Assembly (NCBI GenBank): GCA_016932555.1
Contig: JAFGCQ010000022.1
Span: 1 to 48,711 of the forward strand
Source of the DNA: Candidatus Zambryskiibacteriota bacterium
GTDB taxonomy: Bacteria > Patescibacteriota > Minisyncoccia > Phycocordibacterales > WO2-35-19
Direction: 5' to 3'
DNA: 48,711 bases
The notes beneath the pieces are model-generated. The model saw only the letters and a program-made list of their open reading frames with translations, was not told where the DNA came from and searched no databases. The position numbers were made by a program, and so were the translations under genes. Positions 36,583 to 39,360 of this stretch are shown one piece after another. Positions within the stretch are counted from its first letter, which is position 1. Every line of letters starts with the position of its first letter.

Positions 36583-36626
36583 AATCTGTCATAATTACTT
36601 GACAGATTTTATATTATGAGTATAAT
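36583..36626 (+). promoter_or_regulatory. Promoter TTGACA-16-TATAAT with overlapping operator AATCTGTCA-N8-TGACAGATT
   Basis: -35 at 36599..36604, -10 at 36621..36626; 9-bp inverted repeat 36583..36608. Confidence 0.8.
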
Positions 36627-36861: not shown

Positions 36862-37030
36862 GGGTGCGACAATCCTTGGCTAAGGCACCAAGGTTGCGAT
36901 AAAACCCTTTCGCGTAAAAGTATGGGCGACGGAGGACGCTTTTTCTCCTCCTGTCAAAGTTCTTAAACTCTTGAGAATTTTGACGGGAGAAATAGTTCTT
37001 CCAAAAGTTCTTTTAATTTAAATAAGGAGG
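36862..37030 (+). ncRNA. Structured inter-ORF RNA module, copy A
   Basis: Core GTTGCGATAAA..CGCGTAAAAGTATGGGC (36893..36927), hairpins GGAGGA/TCCTCC, TCAAA/TTTGA, GGGAGAA-ATAG-TTCTTCC, then GTTCTTTT box. Confidence 0.6.
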
Positions 37031-37034
37031 AGTT

Positions 37035-37226
37035 GTGGGCATAGTAAACGACGGTTTAGTTTGCAAAGATGAAGAAATTGCTGTTGTGATCCAAGTCAGG
37101 CAGGAAAGGTGTGATTTCTGTGGCCAAGTGGCCGAACTAAAACAACTTGCCAATGTAATGCTTTGCTCGGAAGACTATGAGCTTGCGGAAAAAGCGTGGC
37201 AGGAATGTTTTGGAAAACAAACCTAG
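37035..37226 (+). CDS. Small CxxC-containing protein (63 aa, GTG start)
   Basis: SD AAGGAGG 37024..37030; ...ERCDFCGQVAELKQLANVMLCSEDYELAEKAW. Confidence 0.6.
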   Translation: MGIVNDGLVCKDEEIAVVIQVRQERCDFCGQVAELKQLANVMLCSEDYELAEKAWQECFGKQT

Positions 37227-37336
37227 CTGTAACTTCGAGCAATATTGGGAGGAATATTGCTCACTCGAATGGGTTCGCGAAATAGTTCGTGGATCGATAG
37301 AGTTTTTGTTCTTTAACTTACTTATAGGGGGTACTA

Positions 37337-37540
37337 ATGAAAAATCAAACTGCTATTTTCGCTGGCTTGGTTATATTCATTCTTTTAGTGGCAAATGTTG
37401 GTGTGTTGGTTATTGTAGACAACACTCATCCCAACATTTCTTCTGGAGATTGGATAGCTATGGCAATAATATGTCTGGTCTTGGATGTGTTTGTATTTAC
37501 TACATCTATGCGCAGATATTTGTCGCTACCGCGGAGATAG
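37337..37540 (+). CDS. Small membrane protein (67 aa)
   Basis: SD AGGGGGT; two hydrophobic helices. Confidence 0.6.
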   Translation: MKNQTAIFAGLVIFILLVANVGVLVIVDNTHPNISSGDWIAMAIICLVLDVFVFTTSMRRYLSLPRR

Positions 37541-38322
37541 CTCTGGGATCGTCAATCTTTGTTCAAGGAAACAAAGTTGCGATAAAGTCCACTCGCGTAA
37601 AAGTATGGGCAGTGGAAGATTAGTACCTCTTTCCACCAAAGTTTTTGATGAGTCGAAAATTTTGGTGGGAGAAGAATGAGGTCATACCTGTGCTTGTAAG
37701 TAGGCGTCACGGACTAGCAACGATCCGATATCCTGCGGGACGGGGAGCAGTCAACCGCTGAAAGCAAGTGCAATCTGAACCTCATCCTTCTTCCTACTAT
37801 ATTGATCTTTAAAAATTTGCTGGGGCGCATCCGCGAGTATGCAACGTCCTTTCGTAAAAAGATGACCGAAACCAAGATATGGTAATGATTGAAACACATC
37901 TTGCATTTCAACAATGTCATCTTCAGCCGAAAGAGGGATTATTCCTAAAGATTGGAATTTTCAAAAATTTCAGCTAACTCGCAAATAATCAATCGCCGAA
38001 CGGAGGAGGAAAGACCGGTCCCTTCGAAAGGGAGCAATGTCTGACAAGATAAGTGCTTCTTCGGTGAAGCACTAGAGCTTGTTCCCAAGGGAGCATTCTT
38101 AGGGATAATCCCAACCGGTCGTGTCCTTTTATAGGGGGTGATGCCTCCCTAGGATCCTCGCCAAACATTTAGTGTTCACCTTGTGGATATGAAAATGTGA
38201 GTCGAGGAAGCACTTGATTTCGCAGATGCCTAGGCCTGACGAATCAAGCGTTGTTAAGGGTTCAATGTTAGAGGTTTGGACTGTTAGTAATTACTTTCAG
38301 TCCAGCCTCAAACCCTTCTGTC
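37541..38322 (+). ncRNA. Large ORF-free structured RNA, including module copy C, bounded 3' by the hammerhead cleavage site
   Basis: Many long helices, e.g. 37667..37682/37779..37794, 37935..37950/38098..38112, 38213..38219/38242..38248, 38278..38283/38298..38303. Confidence 0.6.
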
Positions 38323-38403
38323 TCGAGATGTGCTTGCCCCGTGTGGGGTAAAACCCCATTTACGGGGTATCTCGACTGATGAGTCCAAAAGGACGAAACA
38401 GAA
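38316..38403 (+). ncRNA. Type III hammerhead ribozyme
   Basis: UUCUG-UC | UCGAGA...UCUCGA-CUGAUGAG-UCC-AAAA-GGA-CGAAA-CAGAA; all core nucleotides present; predicted cleavage after C38322. Confidence 0.92.
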
Positions 38404-38436
38404 ACTGTTCTTTTAAATTTTATAGAGGAGAGAAAA

Positions 38437-38676
38437 ATGAGTGTATTTGTTGCTGTTTTTAAATCTAGAGACGAGTATGTTGTTCCGTATTCAGTTGTTT
38501 TCATGTCAAAAGAATTAACCACATCATATCTAACTAGTAATGGATTCGTAAAATTATCAGGTTGGCACGATGTTGAACAGTGGACAAAGAATGATGATGG
38601 TCGTGGTCCGACGAAAGTTGAGGTTTATGATGCTCCAATATTTGACAAGTGTGACGAATGGGTATGGAAAGAGTAG
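38437..38676 (+). CDS. Small hypothetical protein (79 aa)
   Basis: SD GAGGAG upstream, immediately after hammerhead. Confidence 0.6.
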   Translation: MSVFVAVFKSRDEYVVPYSVVFMSKELTTSYLTSNGFVKLSGWHDVEQWTKNDDGRGPTKVEVYDAPIFDKCDEWVWKE

Positions 38677-38680
38677 AAAT

Positions 38681-38795
38681 TTGGCCGAACACTGTTCGGC
38701 CTTTCATCAAAGTTTTTATCCGTTAACTGACGGATGAGGATTTTGATGGGAGAAATGGTTCTTCCAAATGTTCTTTTGAAAAAATTATAAAGGAG
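38681..38795 (+). ncRNA. Structured inter-ORF RNA module, copy D (3' half)
   Basis: GGCCGAAC/GTTCGGCC; ATCAAAG..TTTTGAT; GGGAGAA-ATGG-TTCTTCC; GTTCTTTT box; SD. Confidence 0.55.
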
Positions 38796-38800
38796 TTGTT

Positions 38801-39100
38801 ATGTTAAAGATAATGTTAGACCAAAGCTGTTTAGATGCAAATTGTATTTGGTATTATCCGGGATCAGAGTCAGAGCTTATAAGAGACTGGCAAAAAGGTC
38901 TGATTCCTTTCATTTCTAGACAACATCGGGGACTACTGAGTCTTCTTCCAGAACAATTCGTTGAGGTTTTTGATCGATTTACAGTATTATTCATCGAATC
39001 AGATCTCAAGGGGTTCATTCTCGAAGAGATGGATGACGGTGTTTCCTATCTCAAGATTAGAAACAAAACTTTTAGGTTTCCAAAAAGGAGAAGAAAATGA
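38801..39100 (+). CDS. Small hypothetical protein (99 aa)
   Basis: SD AAAGGAG; overlaps next ORF by 4 nt. Confidence 0.65.
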   Translation: MLKIMLDQSCLDANCIWYYPGSESELIRDWQKGLIPFISRQHRGLLSLLPEQFVEVFDRFTVLFIESDLKGFILEEMDDGVSYLKIRNKTFRFPKRRRK

Positions 39101-39360
39101 AAAAACTTAGTTTTATTGGTCTTTTAACGTTCGGAGTAGCATTTATATTTTTAATTGTTATTGCGGACATTTCTATGAACAGCAACACCCCAATCCCTGA
39201 CCATCTTCTTGGAATGATTATCGCTATTATGTCTTTTGGCTTATGGCTGATAACCAAGGGTGAGGCAGAACGGAAGAATTGGATAGGAGCCCTTTTTTAC
39301 TTCATCTTTTTTCTTCTATTTGCAACACTCGCTTCCATTGGTCTTTGGTTTGGATATTGA
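39097..39360 (+). CDS. Small membrane protein (87 aa)
   Basis: Three hydrophobic helices; translationally coupled ATGA overlap. Confidence 0.65.
   Translation: MKKLSFIGLLTFGVAFIFLIVIADISMNSNTPIPDHLLGMIIAIMSFGLWLITKGEAERKNWIGALFYFIFFLLFATLASIGLWFGY

Follow-up and report, generated by a model that had tools for sequence, protein, structure and literature searches.

Hammerhead ribozymes of all types have been described in bacteria, often near prophages and in clusters that flank small genes (PMC3088659; review PMC6155905). For those that flank prophage genes, cleavage has been demonstrated both in vitro and in E. coli (Perreault et al. 2011, PMC3088659), and the processing of long transcripts has already been proposed as their task (PMC3088659; PMC6155905); the biological role of bacterial hammerheads is an open question (PMC6155905). 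The ribozyme reported here is therefore itself of a known kind. Among papers available without subscription, none was found that joins a hammerhead with Patescibacteria, the candidate phyla radiation (CPR) or Saccharibacteria, and the titles and abstracts of such papers gave no natural pair of a ribozyme and a boxA. The locus described below probably represents a recurring punctuation module of operons in Paceibacteria-type CPR genomes, made up of a hairpin, a hammerhead and a boxA-like motif, in which a genuine hammerhead would cut the transcript co-transcriptionally after C38322.

The window, which is the whole analysed stretch of 48,711 nucleotides, contains a complete type III hammerhead ribozyme on the forward strand at 38316..38403. 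The assignment draws on its sequence, the z value of its fold, a sub-threshold match to RF00008 and covariation among relatives, and on these grounds the element is judged to be a genuine type III hammerhead that would cleave in the cell. All the hammerhead elements that a preliminary description of this DNA had proposed are found where it had placed them, and the core is intact. Stem III is a 5-bp stem of UUCUG (38316-38320) and CAGAA (38399-38403), with U38321-A38398 in addition. Stem II consists of four base pairs, GUCC (38383-38386) with GGAC (38391-38394), closed by the loop AAAA, and the invariant core is present as CUGAUGA (38376-38382) and GAAA (38395-38398). The description had the pairing and the coordinates of the stems right but gave stem I 6 bp, and it has 7 (UCGAGAU, 38323-38329, with AUCUCGA, 38369-38375). 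The cleavage-site residue is C38322 in the NUH-type triplet GUC (38320-38322), and the predicted cut lies between C38322 and U38323. This agrees with the earlier proposal that cleavage there would separate the upstream structured RNA from the downstream 79-aa ORF. When the element is folded alone with RNAfold, the three helices meet at the core and stem III forms the open end.

The usual loop I of 5-6 nt is replaced by an extension of stem I (38330..38368, forward strand) consisting of a 6-nt bulge, GUGCUU (38330-38335), and a GCCCCGU..ACGGGGU hairpin; the residues of loop I are present in the form of this bulge. The hairpin behind the bulge comprises 33 nt and the whole insertion about 35 nt. 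Stem I had been called unusually elaborated with an internal hairpin. No other such insertion is present among about 280 collected copies; an extended stem II is seen in several of the others. The AUGUGCUU segment of the window had been likened to the stem I loop of the sTRSV hammerhead, and loops of the type (A/G)UGUGUA are the consensus of related CPR copies.

The ribozyme is situated in an operon of small genes, all on the forward strand, in a host genome of 608 kb that is 93% complete. The operon promoter, TTGACA-16-TATAAT (36599..36626), matches sigma-70 at 12 of 12 positions. It is followed by a 63-aa ORF with a GTG start (37035..37226, boxA-like motif at 37007) and a 67-aa membrane-like ORF (37337..37540, boxA-like motif at 37308), and the stretch from 37540 to the ribozyme is non-coding. 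Downstream, 3' of the ribozyme, are a 79-aa orphan ORF (38437..38676), a 99-aa ORF (38801..39100, boxA-like motif at 38770) and an 87-aa ORF (39097..39360), which overlaps the 99-aa ORF and is the last gene before a GC-rich hairpin and a T run. The ORFs starting at 37035, 37337, 38437, 38801 and 39097 are orphans or nearly so, and no useful homologues or families were found for them; the 79-aa ORF matches no Pfam or PHROG family, and a search of 296 other genomes of the order gave no homologue. Four findings uphold the initial proposal of a type III hammerhead between the small ORFs of an operon: the core is intact, the stems covary in 110 relatives, the same genus holds a related copy, and the operon has one perfect promoter. 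The boxA-like motif behind the ribozyme, the hairpin adjoining it on the 5' side and the wide distribution of this arrangement in CPR bacteria go beyond that proposal.

The non-coding stretch is highly structured. It holds leader element B (37630..37800, forward strand, z = -5.2), which combines a 16-bp hairpin with a GGGAGAAGAAUGAGG..CCUCAUCCUUCUUCC stem enclosing a domain of about 120 nt. After element B comes the boxA-like TGATCTTTAAAAA (37802..37814, forward strand), and then an orphan structured non-coding RNA of about 0.5 kb (37812..38322, forward strand), whose 3' end would come from the ribozyme cut. No sense-strand ORF of at least 60 aa was found within 37812..38322. The z value is -4.9 for 37985-38255 and -11 for 37630-38440, compared with -0.3 for the coding control 38437-38676. 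Within 37812-38322, capped hairpins are enclosed by a GACCGGU/ACCGGUC stem. No homologue of this RNA was found; the weak matches obtained were rejected as chance, and those examined sit inside protein genes.

Two repeats were observed in the same operon. A long hairpin, CAAAGTTYTT..TTTTGRYGGGAGAA, is present in three copies (36955-36991, 37637-37673 and 38708-38754). In every case a GGGAGAA/TTCTTCC-type stem comes next and a boxA-like motif after that, and the hairpin was found neither in the rest of the genome nor in 346 relatives. It occupies the position that the hammerhead has ahead of other genes, and may be a further processing element. The shorter repeat, GCGATAAA..CGCGTAAAAGTATGGGC, occurs twice (36894-36935 and 37579-37617), downstream of the initial small ORFs.

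Two nucleotides behind stem III, and 31 nt ahead of the ATG of the 79-aa ORF, lies the boxA-like motif TGTTCTTTTAAA (38406..38417, forward strand). A motif of this kind, GWTCWTTnAAA (G[AT]TC[AT]TT and then an A run), is linked to the ribozyme in relatives: within 32 nt it follows 65 of 123 Paceibacteria-type copies (47 of 78 loci), a group that includes loci without a listed title. It follows none of 12 Saccharibacteria copies and none of 128 viral copies (within 25 nt), and controls at offsets of 100-500 nt contained it in 1/137, 0/136, 0/134 and 3/131 cases. The gap between ribozyme and motif is usually 4-13 nt and tightly distributed (median 7, quartiles 6-9), whereas the distance from motif to start codon is loose (median 69.5, quartiles 45-249). 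In the window, boxA-like motifs stand 28-31 nt ahead of four gene starts (37035, 37337, 38437 and 38801).

These figures bear on a possible, if rather unlikely, explanation in which the ribozyme is real and simply serves to form the 3' end of the orphan RNA ahead of it, while the boxA-like motif belongs to the leader of the next gene and is unlinked to the cut. The upstream RNA is strongly structured, has a boxA-like motif of its own at 37804 and ends at the cut. Moreover, the genes at 37035, 37337 and 38801 carry the motif about 30 nt before their starts with no hammerhead upstream, which counts against a punctuation module. However, in relatives the ribozyme is also found behind ordinary protein genes, and the spacing of the motif is tight to the ribozyme and not to the start codon; both observations speak against this explanation.

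The identity of the motif as a boxA is read from its resemblance to the consensus GYTCTTTAANA (PMC5725501), which 38407-38417 fits at 10 of 11 positions. This putative identification is the weakest link of the account, as the motif is not clearly present in rRNA leaders from the order: a motif profile reached at least 9 bits in 5 of 33 leaders compared with 7% of shuffles, which is not significant, and comparison within genomes was mixed. Several of the leader matches (CTTTGACAA) might be -35 boxes. The host genome yielded no 16S gene, and the other TGTTCTTTNNAA matches listed there are not evidently in front of genes. NusB is encoded in the genome (PF01029, E 1.3e-35). The RNA-binding domain of Rho was not found, an absence that is not certain at 93% completeness, and the classical anti-Rho role of boxA would therefore not apply here. 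A role of the motif as an rRNA-pairing site was considered and rejected, as no conserved complement was found in four rRNA-containing loci.

A doubtful alternative is translational control, in which GWTCWTTnAAA would not be a boxA but a pyrimidine tract whose pairing with the Shine-Dalgarno sequence regulates how the cut mRNA is translated. In the window, UUCUUUU could form such a pairing with the GAGGAGA in the ribosome-binding site, but it requires neither the conserved leading G nor the trailing A run. The start codon is at most 60 nt away in only 21 of the 54 motif copies with an ORF start found, 24 more have none within 600 nt, and viral and Saccharibacteria copies with nearby start codons have no motif.

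The third part of the proposed module is found on the other side of the ribozyme. A stable hairpin (38256..38317, forward strand) abuts the 5' side of stem III and shares UU 38316-38317 with it. Because this helix borrows two stem III bases, the ribozyme-competent fold in the native context lies 0.9-2.6 kcal/mol above the minimum according to ViennaRNA, in energies that exclude tertiary contacts, which may reverse the order. A hairpin ends at most 4 nt from stem III in 124 of 152 CPR copies and 107 of 125 viral copies (about 41-43% in shuffles). A subset of the CPR copies has an H-type pseudoknot-like 5' element with an A-rich loop (38/162, against 11% in the control). H-type pseudoknots with an A-rich third loop were observed directly 5' of the ribozyme in, for example, L142, L150, L109 and L073. 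In the viral loci L165-L265, type III hammerheads have an abutting GC-rich 5' hairpin, often a start codon about 30 nt downstream, and no boxA.

Type III hammerheads are spread through the order (Patescibacteria/CPR), where 59 of 397 genomes have matches at E <= 0.001. Several contigs hold 3-6 hammerheads spaced by single genes, often between unrelated small genes, and no other ribozyme class was found in multi-hammerhead loci at Rfam gathering. Searches with a DNA pattern limited to the core, which made no demand on stem I or on the 5' half of stem III, gave 99 stretches in GTDB genomes and 101 in viral contigs. Titles are listed for 80 of the 99: 12 are Saccharibacteria-type, 5 carry the label of another phylum, and the remainder consists of Patescibacteria and bacteria without a label. 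Of the tabulated copies, all but about four have the two stems and the NUH site in place. A prophage reading was rejected, as the downstream proteins in relatives have mixed cellular functions or are orphans and are not phage structural proteins.

In the same genus, one further genome (G008) has a type III hammerhead, at an unrelated site, and none was detectable in the other genus relatives. The G008 copy (L003 1460-1632, contig 3) begins where transcription from a TTGACA-17-TATACT promoter, located downstream of 5S rRNA, is predicted to start (+1); its cleavage would therefore take no more than a few nucleotides off the 5' end of the transcript. This sparse occurrence within the genus fits a history in which the hammerhead arrived with a mobile element and is a relic without a role in the operon, as do the orphan nature of the operon genes and the many hammerheads carried by mobile elements and phages and common in viral contigs. 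Such a history is nevertheless improbable, since the core and the stems are intact at every position even though stem I is elaborated, and the abutting hairpin and the motif have been retained.

Comparison of 110 distinct standard CPR copies shows an invariant core and strongly covarying stems. Pairs 1-6 of stem I and all pairs of stem II are paired in 110 of 110 copies, compared with 46-85 for the variable pairs when columns were shuffled. Most of these copies came from the pattern blind to stem I. Part came from a script for which each stem needed three pairs; ascertainment therefore affects the innermost pairs in part, and those of outer stem I and stem II not at all. The isolated 89-nt ribozyme RNA of the window folds exactly as a hammerhead at -39.3 kcal/mol (z = -5.4), and none of 200 shuffles is as stable. 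A mechanical hammerhead search of both strands in 300 Markov-1 randomisations of the whole 48.7-kb window yielded matches with at least 12 stem pairs at a rate of 0.01 per window. None had 18, the number in the real ribozyme (counted by the script as 9+4+5).

The match to the Rfam model is weak by comparison with its cut-off. RF00008 scores 22.6 bits (E 0.11) in a scan of 4227 families and 25.7 bits (E 8.5e-4) in a search of the whole genome, both below the gathering cut-off of 48.5 bits. The covariance search suggested in the preliminary description thus recovers the core, which RF00008 aligns while dropping the 5' half, and does not reach threshold, because the model cannot bridge the loop I insertion of about 35 nt. 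The description would have given up the ribozyme if there were neither a hit above threshold nor cleavage in vitro; the first half is, taken literally, what was found, and it reflects a limit of the model. Only 4 of the 59 order genomes with hammerheads reach the Rfam cut-off and 55 miss it, though nearly all copies are complete. A chance hairpin that resembles a hammerhead, as the score under threshold might suggest, is extremely improbable given the lack of any match of equal quality in 300 randomised windows and the covariation of homologues.

In the module proposed here, the hammerhead would fold on emerging from the polymerase and cut the operon transcript after C38322. The 5' product would be the orphan structured RNA of about 0.5 kb; behind its protective hairpin it would end in UUCUGUC bearing a 2',3'-cyclic phosphate. 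The 3' product would be an mRNA with a 5'-OH, capped by stems I and II, with the boxA-like element next and the 79-aa ORF 30 nt further on. The ribozyme would separate cassettes, and a boxA after every cut may let NusB/S10 re-engage the elongating polymerase or the new mRNA leader. Since the cut would break the loop of RNA by which an earlier boxA complex is held to the polymerase, a new boxA might be expected behind each ribozyme. Rho seems to be absent, and the task of the complex would thus lie in elongation, RNA folding or translation and not in Rho resistance. The other protein genes of the operon that carry boxA-like motifs have no hammerhead upstream, which is counted against this scheme.

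More tentatively, and with somewhat less than even confidence, Paceibacteria-type CPR bacteria may use the hairpin or pseudoknot, the hammerhead and the boxA as an exchangeable operon separator. The ribozyme would excise each cassette from the nascent transcript and the boxA would reload the antitermination/S10 complex. Unrelated cassettes, with non-coding RNAs among them, would in this way be transcribed as one unit and handled as separate RNAs. The pairing of a ribozyme with a boxA-like motif in many related bacteria and not in viruses points to an unreported way to cut and tag operon transcripts. A partner signal behind the ribozyme in one lineage, absent in viruses, offers a concrete and testable answer to the question of hammerhead function, namely cutting coupled to recruitment of NusB/S10. 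Many hammerheads have been retained in the streamlined genomes of CPR bacteria, mostly hidden by the Rfam cut-off.

Compared with the boxA of rRNA operons and suhB-type leaders (PMC5725501), GTTCTTTTAAA fits GYTCTTTAANA at 10 of 11 positions and lies less than 50 nt from the start codon as in suhB. It differs in that it adjoins a predicted self-cleaving ribozyme in a host where no Rho was found. As in the clustered hammerheads that flank prophage genes (PMC3088659), several ribozymes punctuate a polycistronic transcript of small genes. The viral copies of the present collection share the 5' hairpin, but none of 128 carries the boxA-like motif. From the type III hammerhead of RF00008 the copy in the window differs by its loop I insertion of about 35 nt, its host chromosome of the CPR, the boxA-like motif directly 3' and a score below the cut-off, which is a detection threshold and not a structural feature. 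It shares with that class (RF00008; PMC3088659, PMC6155905) the same core, the three stems with stem III open, the NUH site and the place between small non-conserved ORFs.
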